The notes beneath the pieces are model-generated. The model was not told the DNA's origin and ran no database searches. It worked only from the letters and a program-made list of their open reading frames with translations. Shown in pieces: positions 25,248 to 62,163 of a stretch of 62,309 bases of DNA. A program made the position numbers and the translations under genes. Numbering within the stretch: the first letter of the stretch is position 1; every line of letters starts with the position of its first letter. The DNA is taken from assembly GCA_003697105.1 (NCBI GenBank), contig RFFQ01000131.1, positions 1 to 62,309 of the forward strand, in the 5' to 3' direction. Source of the DNA: Gemmatimonadota bacterium. Lineage in GTDB: Bacteria > 4572-55 > J002.

Positions 25248-25347
25248 ACAAGTCTATCTAAACGAAAGACATGAAATTCAATCTGAATAGACGCCCTTTT
25301 GGTTTGCCAGAGGCACTATTTTTCATTTTAGAAGTTAGGTGATATTT

Positions 25348-26433
25348 ATGACGACGCGCTTTTCAGAAGTGAGAGTCGATCCGGTACCATGGCTTTTGGA
25401 GAATGCCGGACCGGTCATCCGGTATCGGACACTGGTTGATATTTTGGAAAAACCGCTGGATGACCCAGAAGTCCAGAAAGCCCGTCAGGCGATCTTAAAA
25501 ACGAAACATGCCAAGGAAGTCTTGGATAATATTGGTGATGATGGGAGTTGGTTCGGCCGGTTGGTGGAAGGGAGTTCGCATAACGGTGCATGTACGGAGA
25601 CGATGTTTCCCCGAATGTTGGAATTGGGATTTCTGCCCGGTGATGAGGTGGTGGAACGTGCCGCAACATTCCAGTGGCATCTTTTGGAACAGGGTATGGA
25701 AGCAGATACCAAAGAATTTAACCATCATGACCAACAAACCTACGCCTATAAGCACATCACATTTTTACCGGCATCGTATTTAGCCCGAATTGGGTATCAG
25801 GATGACCCCCGGGTAACCGAAGTGTTTGATAAGCTACATGCGGGATTGGTAGAATTTTTCGAGAATGATTTGCAACATAATTTATGGGAACGAAAAAAAA
25901 ATGTCCTGCTGATTAAAGAAGATAGCCTCTGGTTGCACGATTCCTTTATCCTACCAGATTTATACTACTTGGAAACCTTTGCCTACCATCCCACGCTGAA
26001 AACCACCCCCAAATGGAAACCCATTTTCAAAAAATGTATGGAGTGGTGGCTGGAAGGTGGTCGTCCACAAGGTTTAGGCTCGTTTGTGTGGGAACGAACG
26101 AATATTGTGCATGGGAATAACGTCAATTTTCATACGTTAGAGGTGGCGCAATCCTACCAAATGACCCGCCATTACTTGATCAAAATGGAACAAGCCCTGC
26201 GGACAGGCTTTGCCGCCGAGTTTGATTATTTCCAGACGGAAATCTTAAAGCTCGCCGCTTTACAACATCCGGAAGGGTTTTGGGAATTGAATGGGATGAC
26301 CAATAGCCCGCAACAACTGGAATATCAATATATCCCATTGGAAGATAAGTGGAAAGGCTCTGCCCGAGAAGTGGATGTGACCTTTCGGGTCGTGCAGATT
26401 CTGAAGCACTTTGAACGCTCGATCACCGCTTGA
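25348..26433 (+). CDS. Hypothetical protein, probable alpha/alpha-toroid fold
   Basis: The protein has 361 residues from the ATG at 25348 (AGGT upstream); the GTG at 25339 is an in-frame alternative. There is no signal peptide and no membrane helix. The sequence is helical with repeated motifs typical of prenyltransferase/terpenoid-cyclase toroids: VPWLLENAGPVIRYRTLVD, DGSWFGR, SHNGACTETMFPRMLELG and HPEGFWELNG. No DxDD or DDxxD motif of the true cyclases is present, so enzymatic activity is not shown. I do not recognise a named family with confidence. It is the first gene of the operon and abuts the MurD-like gene, which suggests a shared pathway. Confidence 0.6.
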   Translation: MTTRFSEVRVDPVPWLLENAGPVIRYRTLVDILEKPLDDPEVQKARQAILKTKHAKEVLDNIGDDGSWFGRLVEGSSHNGACTETMFPRMLELGFLPGDEVVERAATFQWHLLEQGMEADTKEFNHHDQQTYAYKHITFLPASYLARIGYQDDPRVTEVFDKLHAGLVEFFENDLQHNLWERKKNVLLIKEDSLWLHDSFILPDLYYLETFAYHPTLKTTPKWKPIFKKCMEWWLEGGRPQGLGSFVWERTNIVHGNNVNFHTLEVAQSYQMTRHYLIKMEQALRTGFAAEFDYFQTEILKLAALQHPEGFWELNGMTNSPQQLEYQYIPLEDKWKGSAREVDVTFRVVQILKHFERSITA

Positions 26434-26444
26434 TTTGTCACGAA

Positions 26445-27905
26445 ATGGATCTTTCGACGCTTCGTCAGCAAAACATCCATATCGTGGGGGCAACCAGTGC
26501 CGAAGGTAGCGCCATTTTGGATTTTTTACTCGATCACGGCTGTGAATGCCTTACCGCGCACGATGTCTGTGCTCCGCGTGAAATCCATCGCCATTACCGC
26601 CTGACCCACCTCACACAACCGGTTAAAGCGGTCAATGCAACTATCCGGCGATGGAAATCTGCAGTTACGCTCTGTCATGCGGATGATTATCTGAAGGGAA
26701 TCGAACATGCAGACCTGATTTTTGTGACGCAGGCATGGTTCAAATATCCACCGAATTTCCCGAAATTACCCGAAGTGCGGCAACAAGGTATCCCTTTTCG
26801 AACGATTACCCAACTCTATTTTGAATTGTTTCCCGGCACCATCATCGGCATTACCGGTACCAACGGTAAATCCACGACCACGGCTCTGGTCGCCCAGATA
26901 CTGGAACAGGAAGCCCGTCTTACCGGGACGTTTCGGGTATTGCATAGTGGTAACGAGCGCCATGTTTCCCAAGTACTGGATCAGTTGGAGCACTGCTCAC
27001 CAGCAGATGTACTGGTCTTGGAAATCAGTAACCGGCAATTGATCGAACTGGATCGCGCTCCCCATATTGCCACCATCACCAACATCACTCCCGATCATCT
27101 GGATGACCACCCCTCGTTTGCGGATTATGTCCAGATCAAGACCAAGATGTTCCGCCTGCAAACCCCAGATGATGTGGCAATTTTGAATCGAGACCATGAA
27201 TTGACCCGACAAATACAATCCGTGGTAACTGCCAAACGGGTGTTGACGTACAGTTTTAAGGGCGATCCCGCCGCAGAAGCGATATATCGGGATGACCACT
27301 TGTGGTGGCGCCAACCGGATGGCGACTTTCAACCGATCTGTCACCGCTCGGAATTCCCGTTGCGAGGTAATCATAATATTGAAAATGCACTGGCGGCAAT
27401 ATTGACGACAAAAGCGTTTGGTGCTCGGTCGGAAGCGATTCAGTCGGCATTGCAATCCTTTCGAGGATTGCCCTATCGCACGGAAGTGGTCGCTACATTG
27501 GATGGAGTGGAATACATCAATGATGTGAAAAGTACCACACCTGCCGCCACGATTGCGGCACTTCAATCCCTCTCCCAACCCGTTATTTTGATTGCCGGCG
27601 GAGGAGGTAAAGGGGATTTAGATTATCAGCCCTTAGCACATCAGATTTCCCAACACGTTAAAGCACTTATTTTGCTGTCAGGTGAGGGTGCTACTGCCAT
27701 TGCGGCGGCTATGGCAGGTCTTGATACCCCGCTGTATTACCAACAGACGCTAGAACAAGCCATTTTGCAGGCAAAAACCTTGGCTGTGGCGGGTGATGTG
27801 GTACTTCTCTCACCAGCATGTCCTTATTTTTCCAGCACTTTTGGTGCATCACCCCGCGGCGGTTTCACCCAACTGATCGAGGAGTTACAACAAAACCATG
27901 CATGA
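26445..27905 (+). CDS. Mur ligase family protein, MurD-like
   Basis: The protein has 486 residues from the ATG at 26445; neither this nor the TTG at 26430 has a clear ribosome binding site. The ATP-binding loop GITGTNGKSTTT lies at about 135-146. The middle-domain segment ITNITPDHLDDHPSFADYV and the C-terminal segments GLPYRTEVV and IAGGGGKGDLDYQPLA follow MurD order. MurD adds D-glutamate to UDP-MurNAc-L-alanine. Two departures stand out. The N-terminal domain reads HIVGATSAEGSAI in place of the usual Gly-rich start, and the MurD substrate motif N-D-S-K-A-T-N reads NDVKSTT. It is also longer than typical MurD (about 440-450). No other cell-wall gene is adjacent; the gene overlaps a LysW-like gene by 8 nt. 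It may be the house MurD or a ligase with another substrate. Confidence 0.78.
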   Translation: MDLSTLRQQNIHIVGATSAEGSAILDFLLDHGCECLTAHDVCAPREIHRHYRLTHLTQPVKAVNATIRRWKSAVTLCHADDYLKGIEHADLIFVTQAWFKYPPNFPKLPEVRQQGIPFRTITQLYFELFPGTIIGITGTNGKSTTTALVAQILEQEARLTGTFRVLHSGNERHVSQVLDQLEHCSPADVLVLEISNRQLIELDRAPHIATITNITPDHLDDHPSFADYVQIKTKMFRLQTPDDVAILNRDHELTRQIQSVVTAKRVLTYSFKGDPAAEAIYRDDHLWWRQPDGDFQPICHRSEFPLRGNHNIENALAAILTTKAFGARSEAIQSALQSFRGLPYRTEVVATLDGVEYINDVKSTTPAATIAALQSLSQPVILIAGGGGKGDLDYQPLAHQISQHVKALILLSGEGATAIAAAMAGLDTPLYYQQTLEQAILQAKTLAVAGDVVLLSPACPYFSSTFGASPRGGFTQLIEELQQNHA

Positions 27906-28065
27906 ATTTTTAACAGCACGTTGCCCGCTATGTGGGGCGGAAATCGAAATTCCACAAGATACGGATTTTGGCGAACTTTATGAGTGTGACGTATGTGGTG
28001 CTGAAGTTGAAGTGGTTGAACTAGACCCCCTAGAACTCCAACCGGTGACTGAAATTGAAAAATGA
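27898..28065 (+). CDS. LysW-like small zinc protein lacking the acceptor tail
   Basis: This 55-residue ORF overlaps the MurD-like stop by 8 nt and the next start by 4 nt (ATGA). It has C9-x2-C12 (RCPLCGAEIEI) and C30-x2-C33 (ECDVCGAEVEVV), then LDPLELQP. This is the pattern of LysW, the amino-group carrier protein of the alpha-aminoadipate lysine/arginine/ornithine pathways. Known LysW proteins end in E-D-W-G-E, and the last Glu is joined to the substrate. This one ends TEIEK, with no such tail in any frame. None of the LysW-modifying genes lysX, lysZ, lysY, lysJ or lysK is in the window. It may be a carrier with different chemistry, or a zinc-ribbon partner of its neighbours. Confidence 0.8.
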   Translation: MHEFLTARCPLCGAEIEIPQDTDFGELYECDVCGAEVEVVELDPLELQPVTEIEK

Positions 28066-29150
28066 GGGATTCTTCTCCCACTCCGGAACTGCCGCACGTG
28101 GCAAGTTGCCATACGGTATGGCGGTATGCGCCATTGTACCGAAAACCTCCGGCTTCAAACTATCACTTAACATTAGCAGAAGGAAATACGCCGTGTCTGG
28201 AAATGCCGTTACTGGCGGATCGGCTAGGTTTAACGGCTTTATTTTTTAAACGTGAAGACCTGAATCCAACCGGCTCGCATAAAGATCGTAGTTTGGCGTT
28301 TCAGGTATCGACCTATTGGGAGCAAGGCTGTTCCCGTTTGCTAATTTCATCCAGTGGAAATGCGGGTGTTTCGGCTTCGGCGTATGCCGCACTGGCAGGG
28401 ATTTCCATGTATGTGTTTGTCTCTCCCCAAACGCCCCGTCACAAACTGGAACGGATTCACCGCTATGGTGGTCACATAATTGCATCGTCGAGAGCGATCA
28501 GCTTTGCCAAGCATATTTCCCGGCAATTGGAGATTCCAAATCTTCGTCCATCGACCAATCCACGCTCTATTGAGGGTTTTCAGTCGATTGGATGGGAACT
28601 TTTTGAACAATTGGGCACCGTAGATTCTATTTTTACGTATGTCAGTAGCGCCAGTTCGTTAATCGGGATCGGGCGTGCATTTCAACGCTTAAAAGATGAG
28701 TTTCATCTACTGGAGAGCGTGCCGCAGCTACATGCGGTCCAATCCGGTTTGGGAACCAGCATTGCCGCCCATTTTGTACCCCAAAAGCAAGATTTACCGA
28801 TGCAGCGGAGTGTGGTCGGTGATTTAGGGGCAAAAAAAACAGCATTAGCCGATGAGGCGATCCGGTTGATTACGGCTACCGGCGGGTCGGGGTGGATTGT
28901 CTCCGATGCCGATATTTTAGCCGCCCGCCACGTGTTGGGGAGGCAATACGGGATTGAAACTTCCAGCGAAGGGTGCGCGGCTTTTGCCGCCCTACAACAC
29001 GCGAGCCAAACACGCCAGTTAGGGCGTGTGGTGGTCCTCCTCACCGGACATGGTTCGCAATGGGAGATGACCTCCCCAGAACTGGATCAATTACCCGTTT
29101 TAAATACGTTTTCCGAAATTGCCACTTATATTGAACGCCACCCCGCCTAG
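28062..29150 (+). CDS. Threonine synthase-like PLP-dependent enzyme
   Basis: The protein has 362 residues and starts inside the stop of the LysW-like gene (ATGA overlap). The PLP lysine is K74 in LNPTGSHKDRS. The Gly/Ser-rich phosphate loop ISSSGNAGVSASAYAA (about 94-109) follows, as does LAEGNTPCLEMP at the N-terminus, a threonine-synthase signature. Threonine synthase turns O-phosphohomoserine into threonine. The paralogue at 61045 looks like the canonical enzyme with its zinc-ribbon N-terminus, so this copy may use another substrate; related enzymes make cysteate or diaminopropionate-type products. The N-terminus has two isolated Cys/His but no zinc ribbon. Confidence 0.82.
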   Translation: MRDSSPTPELPHVASCHTVWRYAPLYRKPPASNYHLTLAEGNTPCLEMPLLADRLGLTALFFKREDLNPTGSHKDRSLAFQVSTYWEQGCSRLLISSSGNAGVSASAYAALAGISMYVFVSPQTPRHKLERIHRYGGHIIASSRAISFAKHISRQLEIPNLRPSTNPRSIEGFQSIGWELFEQLGTVDSIFTYVSSASSLIGIGRAFQRLKDEFHLLESVPQLHAVQSGLGTSIAAHFVPQKQDLPMQRSVVGDLGAKKTALADEAIRLITATGGSGWIVSDADILAARHVLGRQYGIETSSEGCAAFAALQHASQTRQLGRVVVLLTGHGSQWEMTSPELDQLPVLNTFSEIATYIERHPA

Positions 29151-29162
29151 AATGTGATCTGT

Positions 29163-30062
29163 ATGGATAACCCGTTTACCGATTATCTCCGCCGTTTCAA
29201 AGACTACATCAGCATTGAAAAAGGTCTTGCCGATAATAGTATTGAAGCCTATGATCGAGACCTGACACGTTATTTACATCACTTAGATGACCTTAACCTT
29301 ACCCATTTGGAACAGATTACCCATGATCACATCACCCAATTGCTGATGCAACTGCATGAAATGGGGTTATCTCATGCCAGTATTGCCCGGAATATTTCCG
29401 CCCTGCGCCAATTTCATCAATTTTTGGTTGCCGAGGGCGAGACCGAAAATGACCCCACGGAACTGCTGCGCAATCCACAAATTGGGCGAAAAATTCCGGT
29501 AGTTCTTACGATGGAAGAGGTCGAACGGTTGCTTTCTAGCCCCGATACCCGTACCACCCTAGGGATGCGAGACCAAGCGATGCTGGAATTTATGTATGCG
29601 ACCGGTGTCCGGGTTTCCGAATTGATTGCCTTTAATATTCGTGATTTTTATCCAGATGATGGGTTTGTTCGTGTTTTTGGAAAGGGGTCTAAAGAGCGGA
29701 TTATCCCGATTGGTTCCAAAGCGATAGAAAGTACCCAAACCTACATCGCCGTCGCACGAGAGGTTCTCCGCCGGAGTAAACCCACGGAAACGCTTTTTTT
29801 GAATTGGCACGGGCGCCCCCTCAGCCGGATGGGCTTTTGGAAAATCCTGCAAAAACATGTGGAAGGGGCAAATATTAAAAAAGATATTAGCCCGCATACC
29901 TTGCGCCATACCTTCGCAACCCATCTATTGGAAGGTGGGGCGGACTTACGCGCCGTGCAGGAGATGCTGGGACACCGAACGATTGTAACCACCCAAATTT
30001 ACACTAAAATTGACCGTCAATTTTTGCTGGAAACCCACCGTCACTACCACCCACGGGGATGA
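29163..30062 (+). CDS. xerD: XerC/XerD-type tyrosine recombinase
   Basis: The protein has 299 residues from the ATG at 29163. It has a SAM-like N-terminal domain (about 3-90) and a catalytic domain with a complete active site: R150 (GVRVSEL), K174 (FGKGSKER), H245-x2-R248 (HTLRHTFATHLL), H271 (LGHRTIVTT) and nucleophile Y280 (QIYTKID). Length and motifs match chromosome-dimer-resolution recombinases rather than integron or phage integrases. It is embedded in the operon 13 nt after the threonine-synthase-like gene, with no repeats or att-like ends around it, so a housekeeping role is more likely than mobility. XerC cannot be fully excluded. Confidence 0.85.
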   Translation: MDNPFTDYLRRFKDYISIEKGLADNSIEAYDRDLTRYLHHLDDLNLTHLEQITHDHITQLLMQLHEMGLSHASIARNISALRQFHQFLVAEGETENDPTELLRNPQIGRKIPVVLTMEEVERLLSSPDTRTTLGMRDQAMLEFMYATGVRVSELIAFNIRDFYPDDGFVRVFGKGSKERIIPIGSKAIESTQTYIAVAREVLRRSKPTETLFLNWHGRPLSRMGFWKILQKHVEGANIKKDISPHTLRHTFATHLLEGGADLRAVQEMLGHRTIVTTQIYTKIDRQFLLETHRHYHPRG

Positions 30063-59797: not shown

Positions 59798-61048
59798 GTG
59801 CCGGTTCATCATCTTCTAAAAGTTTTTGAAAGCCGCAAAATGGCGGCGTTACTCCTGCTGGGTTTTTCTTCCGGCTTGCCCTTACTCCTCACCAACAAAA
59901 CTGTGCAAGCCTGGATGACATTTGAAGGGGTTGATTTGGGCACGGTGGGGCTGTTTAGCCTTGTCGGATTGCCATACTCTCTCAAATTCATCTGGGCACC
60001 CCTGCTAGACCGGTATGTTCCCCCCTTTTTAGGACGTCGGCGCGGCTGGCTGGCAATCACCCAAGTGGGGTTGATGATAGCCCTCGCCACGATGGCGCTC
60101 CATGACCCAACGGTTGCCTTACAAATGCTGGCACTCAACACGGTGATTATCGCGTTTCTGAGTGCCTCGCAAGACATCGCTGTGGATGCCTACCGTACCG
60201 ATGTGTTGGAAGAACGGGAGATGGGCGCCGGAGTTTCGGTCTGGGTGCTGGGCTATCGCGTGGGGATGCTTATCGCCGGGTCTCTCACCTTTGTCATGGC
60301 AAAATATATGTCGTGGCAGATGGTCTATCTCGCTATGTCCGGTTTGATGTTGATTGGCTTGACCACCTCGTTCTGGTCACCTGCCCCCCAAACGGAAAAT
60401 CAAACTCCGACTTCTCTCTTTGATTCTGTTATCTTTCCCTTTATTGATTTTTTTCGCCGCCTGAATGTGACCCGTGCCAGCCTGATTTTACTGTTTATCA
60501 TCCTATACAAATTGGGCGACGGTATTTTGGGCAATATGGCGACACCCTTTTTGATCAAAACCGGTTTTGATGAGATCGACATTGGCTTGATGCAAGGTGT
60601 GGTCGGGCTTCTCGCAACCATGATTGGTGTAGTCGCCGGTGGCGTGATTCTCAGCCGGATCGGCATCAACCGTTCCATGTGGGTGTTTGGGGGGTTGCAG
60701 GCGGTCAGTAACCTGATGTACCTGATCTTGGCAATTGTTGGTAAAAATGATGTAGTAGCGGTGCTGGCGATCAGTGTGGAAAATTTTTGTGCGGGCTTGG
60801 TGACTTCCGGCTTTGTCGCTTATCTGATGAGCCTATGTAACCCTAAATTTTCTGCAACACAATTTGCTTTGCTAACCAGTTTAATGGCAGTTAGCCGGGA
60901 TATTCTGGTTGCACCGGCGGGTAAGATGGCAGAAGCGACCGGCTGGATTTGGTTTTTTTTGATCAGTATCTTGTTGGCGTTGCCCGGCTTATTGTTGTTA
61001 CCGGTTGCCGCCCCTTGGAATGCCCCCGCTGAACAGGTTGAATCATGA
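59798..61048 (+). CDS. AmpG-like MFS permease
   Basis: The protein has 416 residues from a GTG at 59798, with about twelve membrane helices. The first part reads LLGFSSGLPLLLTNKTVQAWM and LPYSLKFIWAPLLDRYVPP, and helix 4 has SQDIAVDAYRTDVL. These are signatures of the AmpG/PAT subfamily, which imports anhydro-muropeptides in Gram-negative bacteria or carries acetyl-CoA in eukaryotes. No amidase AmpD or beta-lactamase gene adjoins it. Its stop overlaps the threonine synthase start by 4 nt. Confidence 0.88.
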   Translation: MPVHHLLKVFESRKMAALLLLGFSSGLPLLLTNKTVQAWMTFEGVDLGTVGLFSLVGLPYSLKFIWAPLLDRYVPPFLGRRRGWLAITQVGLMIALATMALHDPTVALQMLALNTVIIAFLSASQDIAVDAYRTDVLEEREMGAGVSVWVLGYRVGMLIAGSLTFVMAKYMSWQMVYLAMSGLMLIGLTTSFWSPAPQTENQTPTSLFDSVIFPFIDFFRRLNVTRASLILLFIILYKLGDGILGNMATPFLIKTGFDEIDIGLMQGVVGLLATMIGVVAGGVILSRIGINRSMWVFGGLQAVSNLMYLILAIVGKNDVVAVLAISVENFCAGLVTSGFVAYLMSLCNPKFSATQFALLTSLMAVSRDILVAPAGKMAEATGWIWFFLISILLALPGLLLLPVAAPWNAPAEQVES

Positions 61049-62163
61049 TGAATCACCTCCGCTGCCGCACCTGCGGCCAAACCTACAACCCGAATGAGCC
61101 GGTCTGGAGATGTACCTGCGGCGGTCTGCTGGATTTGCACTTTCAGGCAGAATTTCCACTAGACCGGATTCAAGCTCGCCCGCCGGATTTGTGGCGCTAC
61201 CGCGAAGCACTCCCATTGGAGTCCGATGACCACATCATTATCATTGCGCTGGGAGAAGGATTTACCCCGCTATTACCAGTGTGGATCGGTGATAAATCGA
61301 TCTGGATCAAGCAAGAACACCTCTTTCCCACCGGATCGTACAAGGATCGCGGGGCGGCGATGTTGATCAGCAAAAGCGCGGAATTGGGTATCTCACGCGT
61401 GGTGGAGGATTCCTCCGGCAATGCGGGGTGTGCTGTGGCGGCGTACTGTGCCCGCGCCGGTATGGAATGCGATATTTACGTTCCAGCGGATACGTCCGCC
61501 GCTAAACTCGCTCAAATTCAGATGTACGGTGCCACGTTGCACAAAATAGCCGGTTCCCGGGAGGATACCGCTCGAGCCGTGCTGATGGCGGCAGAACAGT
61601 ACTATTATGCCAGCCACTCGTGGAATCCGTTTTTCTTTCACGGTACCAAAACGTTTGCCTATGAAGTCTGCGAACAATTGGGCTGGACTGCCCCGGATAC
61701 AATTATCTTACCGGTGGGCAATGGCACCCTGTTACTGGGGGTTGACATCGGTATGAGCGAGCTACGGAACGCCGGAATCATCCCCCAAAAACCAAAATTG
61801 ATCGCAGTACAAGCGGCACATTGTTCTCCCTTGGCACAACGGTTTTTTAAACCAGATTCCGAGATCACGTCCCCCCAACCCACCATTGCTGAAGGGATTG
61901 CTATCGCGGAACCAATCCGGGGGGAACAAATCCTTGACGCCGTGCGTAATAGTGGCGGTACGTTCATCACCGTTAGCGAGGACGAGATCAAAACCGCCTT
62001 GATCCAGATGGGAACACAAGGGTTTTATATTGAACCCACAGCTGCCGCGACCATTGCCGGTATCCAGCGCTATCTCGCAACAGCCCCCCCAGATGAGGTG
62101 ATCGTGTCCGTTTTTACCGGACATGGGCTTAAAGCCACTGAAAAAATACTAAAATTCCTATAA
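61045..62163 (+). CDS. thrC: Threonine synthase with N-terminal zinc ribbon
   Basis: The protein has 372 residues; the first of two adjacent ATGs overlaps the permease stop. The N-terminal ribbon has C7-x2-C10 and C23-x-C25. The PLP lysine is K100 in FPTGSYKDRGAAM, and the phosphate loop is EDSSGNAGCAVAAY. GEGFTPLLP precedes it. This is the shorter, SAM-independent-looking type that converts O-phosphohomoserine to threonine. Compared with the operon copy at 28062 it has the standard ribbon and motifs, so it is the better candidate for the biosynthetic enzyme. Confidence 0.9.
   Translation: MMNHLRCRTCGQTYNPNEPVWRCTCGGLLDLHFQAEFPLDRIQARPPDLWRYREALPLESDDHIIIIALGEGFTPLLPVWIGDKSIWIKQEHLFPTGSYKDRGAAMLISKSAELGISRVVEDSSGNAGCAVAAYCARAGMECDIYVPADTSAAKLAQIQMYGATLHKIAGSREDTARAVLMAAEQYYYASHSWNPFFFHGTKTFAYEVCEQLGWTAPDTIILPVGNGTLLLGVDIGMSELRNAGIIPQKPKLIAVQAAHCSPLAQRFFKPDSEITSPQPTIAEGIAIAEPIRGEQILDAVRNSGGTFITVSEDEIKTALIQMGTQGFYIEPTAAATIAGIQRYLATAPPDEVIVSVFTGHGLKATEKILKFL

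Follow-up and report, generated by a model that had tools for sequence, protein, structure and literature searches.

The window, a stretch of 62,309 nucleotides from the genome of a Gemmatimonadota bacterium, carries on its plus strand a tightly packed run of genes encoding a 364-aa protein, MurD, a LysW-like protein, a paralogue of threonine synthase, the recombinase XerD and a histidine kinase. Up to the paralogue, successive genes overlap by 4, 8 and 4 bases. The features that matter here are the following:

25339..26433, plus strand: 364-aa protein with no Pfam or NCBIfam match, first of the overlapping run
26430..27905, plus strand: MurD of a divergent type, the sole MurD detected in the genome
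27879..27884, plus strand: GAGGAG, a Shine-Dalgarno-like sequence seen about 12 bases 5′ of the ATG, plausibly the ribosome-binding sequence of the LysW-like ORF
27898..28065, plus strand: LysW-family zinc-ribbon protein of 55 aa without the EDWGE tail, ending TEIEK, as read from its sequence, profile matches and structural model
28058..28065, plus strand: AAAAATGA, comprising the last codon AAA, the TGA that overlaps the next ATG, and an A5 run
28062..29150, plus strand: paralogue of threonine synthase, a PLP enzyme of fold type II (PALP) that lacks the N-terminal zinc ribbon
29154..30062, plus strand: XerD recombinase, following the paralogue in the run
61045..62163, plus strand: ordinary-looking threonine synthase with an N-terminal zinc ribbon, CRTCG...CTCGG

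The product of the ORF at 27898-28065 (plus strand) is the 55-aa protein MHEFLTARCPLCGAEIEIPQDTDFGELYECDVCGAEVEVVELDPLELQPVTEIEK. The original prediction had described an ORF with both CxxC pairs and a TEIEK end, and it is present exactly so. Its place in the LysW family is secured by a PF21344 match (Pfam; E 3.5e-15, 55.8 bits against a cut-off of 27) and by a LysW-like AlphaFold2 model (pLDDT 85). With the NCBI model for lysW, TIGR01206, it scores 52.6 bits, slightly below the cut-off of 53.2, and with the archaeal LysW/ArgW model NF041070 it reaches 48.4 bits, far below the cut-off of 75. LysW chains of the PDB match the ORF by sequence at E about 3e-10 (best 2.8e-10), and LysW also provides the top structural matches of the model in Foldseek, with a TM score of 0.78 and an rmsd of 1.2 Å for 3wwl. 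Compared with this T. thermophilus LysW (PDB 3wwl), identity is 50% over 48 structurally aligned columns. The protein thus has in common with LysW and ArgW (TIGR01206, NF041070) the fold, the four cysteines and the EVV-x-LDPL core, and it probably binds zinc. The closest LysW relatives display at most about 56% identity over the core. GC3 of the ORF is 0.29, against 0.49-0.55 in the neighbour genes (binomial p 0.002). A profile search of the genome retrieved this single LysW homologue and no second, normal LysW, and G001, the sole genome of the same class that was compared, has none.

What distinguishes the protein is its C-terminus. In LysW and ArgW, the terminal Glu of EDWGE accepts the substrate and the GSWGR motif of LysX/ArgX recognises EDWGE; a haloarchaeon carrying argW(E54A) is an arginine auxotroph, the function being lost (PMC10433800). 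Alignment shows that the ORF ends TEIEK and stops where its relatives go on with EEEDWGE. It had further been claimed that no frame supplies the missing tail, and scanning bears this out: there is no [DE]WG-type tail on the plus strand within 27601-28600 and no EDWGE in the three frames beyond the TGA. A tail encoded in another nearby frame of this strand is therefore ruled out.

The loading enzyme appears to be missing as well. No LysX or ArgX with GSWGR is recognisable in the window's genome, although, the MAG being 96.85% complete, absence of LysX is not fully certain. The best match to a LysX query is an ATP-grasp protein of the RimK family (C43), 29% identical over about 190 aa (E 1.2e-13), which lacks GSWGR and scores 71 bits against the LysX cut-off of 275.6 bits. 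As the sole candidate for a LysX under another name, this RimK/MptN-like protein was rejected on its identity and on the missing motif. LysZ, LysY, LysJ and LysK are not among its immediate neighbours, nor do any of them stand beside the LysW-like ORF, whose neighbours are MurD, the threonine-synthase paralogue and XerD. The genome encodes a DAP epimerase (DapF), so that lysine is presumably made via the DAP route. ArgJ is absent from this genome and from the same-class genome G001; the lack of a recognisable LysX/ArgX makes a role as ArgW not credible. Known LysW/ArgW carriers possess the C-terminal EDWGE acceptor Glu, a LysX and LysZ/Y/J/K neighbours, whereas the protein described here has none of the three. 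Because EDWGE and its cognate LysX are both absent and no pathway gene is nearby, we do not class it as an amino-group carrier.

This joint absence was placed in a wider context by surveying PF21344 in 386 genomes around the window's genome and in 378 genomes around G225, whose LysW-like protein is an orphan. In the G225-centred survey, 335 of the 378 genomes hold a PF21344 protein, and the approximately 50 tails that were read are either EDWGE or variable and acidic, mostly the latter. A LysX query was then run against 41 genomes: 17 with EDWGE, 23 with other tails, and G001, which has no LysW. A GSWGR-bearing LysX lies near the LysW gene in 17/17 of the EDWGE genomes (E 1e-52 or better) and in 0/23 of those with non-EDWGE tails, the window's own included. 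The Fisher p of 1e-11 for this association is overstated, since the genomes are related and most of the non-EDWGE ones belong to one group, which gene content suggests to be the Acidobacteriota. A weaker LysX-like match was encountered in G099 (tail EEEEEWGD; E 4.5e-29), on another contig and without GSWGR. Both states coexist within family f269, where G632 combines EDWGE with LysX while G640 ends in EEEWEG and has no LysX. LysX-less genomes hold many LysW-family proteins whose tails are not EDWGE, and the window's protein combines the same three traits, a LysW core, a non-EDWGE tail and a LysX-less genome.

Several observations on these relatives can be added. LysW-family proteins with long, variable acidic tails are widespread in LysX-less genomes (L103, L134-L166; families f191, f261, f264-f267), and their genes often adjoin one for a carboxypeptidase-regulatory-like protein or an M28 peptidase. 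In the Thermus-like G020 and G167 (L223, L018), the normal LysW gene is adjoined by that of a second, longer LysW-like protein, which consists of two tandem CxxC ribbons and ends VEEEDEEW. Among open-licence papers, a literature search for LysW with Acidobacteria gave only studies of lysine riboswitches and of soil communities.

We consider it highly probable that the LysW-like protein is a non-carrier zinc ribbon, an estimate that spans all non-carrier readings, including the one in which it is part of a split gene. Of the three options left by the original prediction, this is the one that is supported, and to its initial basis can now be added the missing LysX, the single LysW homologue, the presence of DapF and the existence of tail-less relatives in LysX-less genomes. 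The protein would have lost, or never had, the EDWGE acceptor, in a host without a recognisable LysX-type ligase, and would be a small protein that binds Zn and has a structural or partner role.

The candidate partner is the threonine-synthase paralogue encoded immediately downstream, the ATG of which overlaps the TGA of the LysW-like ORF by 4 bases (ATGA). It lacks the N-terminal ribbon that is frequent in its family and present in the genome's ordinary-looking threonine synthase, and the LysW-like protein could give this ribbon in trans, as their positions suggest. The catalytic Lys (GSHKDR) is kept in the paralogue. Its VGxGxxxxG loop, which we take to be the PLP-phosphate loop of the threonine-synthase family, reads VSSASSLIG and, judging by this alteration, the paralogue itself may be inactive. 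When the pair is aligned with two threonine synthases that have the ribbon, the LysW-like protein places its four cysteines at those of the ribbon, and the paralogue retains the W-R-Y found after it. The order of four cysteines, WRY and PLP domain in threonine synthase is matched by the order along the chromosome. On the other hand, the threonine synthase ribbon belongs to the same chain as the enzyme, while the LysW-like protein is a separate ORF of LysW type rather than ThrC type. The match of the threonine synthase profile PRK08197 starts after the ribbon and does not reach the LysW-like sequence. Profile comparison of the LysW-like and threonine synthase ribbons with hhalign gave a weak similarity, over only 22 columns at 70.7%, and no threonine synthase is found among the Foldseek matches listed for the LysW-like model.

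The 4-base overlap, the paralogue's missing ribbon and the alignment of cysteines and WRY together lead us to propose, tentatively, the whole statement: a non-carrier zinc ribbon that acts as partner of the threonine-synthase paralogue and supplies its ribbon in trans. No homologous locus with the same gene order was found, so it is the position of the two genes that points to the partnership. Among the 386 genomes there is no close homologue of the paralogue at E 1e-40, and accordingly no relative with a fused LysW-like ribbon at that threshold. Long PF21344 frames elsewhere, considered as possible fusions, turned out to be a kinase and various proteins whose ribbons are unrelated. Neither the LysW-like protein nor the paralogue has a match on plasmids.

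Nearly as likely as this partnership is that the protein is an orphan zinc ribbon with a structural or regulatory role independent of its operon neighbours. The abundance of PF21344 proteins around G225 speaks for it, those read there in LysX-less genomes ending in variable acidic tails, as do the recurring neighbours of such genes elsewhere, carboxypeptidase-regulatory-like and M28 peptidase genes and not those of amino-acid biosynthesis. A Gracilibacteria relative (L004), 40% identical to the LysW-like protein and ending LLTEEEED, fits the same picture. Like the acidic-tail orphans of PF21344, the window's protein has a LysW core without EDWGE, in a LysX-less genome and outside any Lys/Arg operon. 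The tails of the orphans, however, are longer and strongly acidic, and their neighbours differ, whereas the window's protein is shorter, ends EIEK and is encoded firmly within an overlapping run. Its core scores 56.4 bits with the carrier LysW model against 43.8 bits with the acidic-tail model; being nearer to the carriers, it gives no support to common descent with the acidic-tail proteins.

The junction itself raises the question of whether the two ORFs could be one gene, divided by an assembly error of one base or read through by programmed -1 slippage, and encoding a protein of 417 aa made of a ribbon and a threonine synthase. The paralogue lies in the -1 frame at the A5 run, where the ORFs would become one through a -1 shift or the insertion of a single A; the total of 417 aa is close to the 406 positions of the threonine synthase model, and the aligned ribbon cysteines and WRY agree with such an arrangement. 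We nevertheless judge it improbable. ATGA overlaps are common, and the same run has two more 4-base overlaps; A5 is a short homopolymer; and the LysW core is complete through its last strand, with a sequence of LysW and not ThrC type.

The two other options of the original prediction, a carrier with a different attachment point or one in which removal of Lys55 exposes Glu54, received no support, TEIE not being EDWGE and no cognate loader having been found. A working carrier of either kind would be compatible with the retained globular core of LysW, EVV-x-LDPL included, with Glu54 as the next-to-last residue and with the ATP-grasp protein encoded elsewhere in the genome (C43). Yet that protein is too far from LysX in identity, score and motif, and it has no LysZ/Y/J/K gene in its immediate surroundings. 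Since tail and LysX co-occur across genomes and this genome lacks both, we regard the carrier and the Lys-trimming readings as very unlikely.

Equally doubtful, in our opinion, is a local mutation by which a normal LysW was recently truncated in one genome or assembly and lost its function. The core's greater proximity to carriers is in its favour, and the low GC3 (0.29 versus about 0.5) hints at another history, but the ORF is intact, preceded by its Shine-Dalgarno-like sequence and tightly overlapped on both sides. The absence of the loader and of the downstream carrier genes also argues against truncation as an isolated event in a system that otherwise works. Given the scores of the core with the two models, a decayed carrier without a role may fit.

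The gene upstream deserves separate consideration. By inspection, the genome contains seven Mur-ligase matches: MurE, MurF, the MurD at 26430..27905, an Mpl/MurC-like protein, MurC, FolC and a PgsB-like protein. This MurD forms a fully supported group with MurDs from the dcw clusters of three f78 genomes; these MurDs share its divergent N-terminal domain, at 38-39% identity over nearly the full length, and these nearest relatives sit in mraY-murD-ftsW-murG clusters. Its motifs near the D-Glu site, EISNRQL and SPACPYFSSTF, depart from those of usual MurD proteins. As the genome's sole detected MurD, and by its grouping with dcw MurDs, it is read as a cell-wall enzyme, and the idea of a dedicated carrier ligase was rejected on these grounds. 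For the same reasons, a novel carrier system in which a Mur-type ligase, in place of LysX, would charge the LysW-like protein with an amino acid, to be modified there by the PLP enzyme, is disfavoured and seems to us extremely improbable. In the Gracilibacteria locus (L004 6001-8728), the LysW-like gene also stands beside MurD-like and MurL-like genes, both convergent to it; the MurL-like gene suggests an L-Glu route of peptidoglycan synthesis. Because the MurD gene of L004 is convergent and beside a MurL-like gene, adjacency to MurD in both places is probably a coincidence. No paper treating LysW together with MurD was found in a search of open-licence literature.

Family models name LysW homologues 'lysine biosynthesis protein', yet many of these proteins have neither the acceptor tail nor the loader. 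The rule that tail and loader go together provides a simple way to separate real carriers from non-carriers, and it brings out a widespread zinc-ribbon family without an assigned role. What is new here is a LysW-family protein devoid of the carrier parts, one of many such proteins, for which there is a candidate partner. If the idea of this partnership is true, a carrier fold would have been put to new use as a PLP-enzyme subunit.
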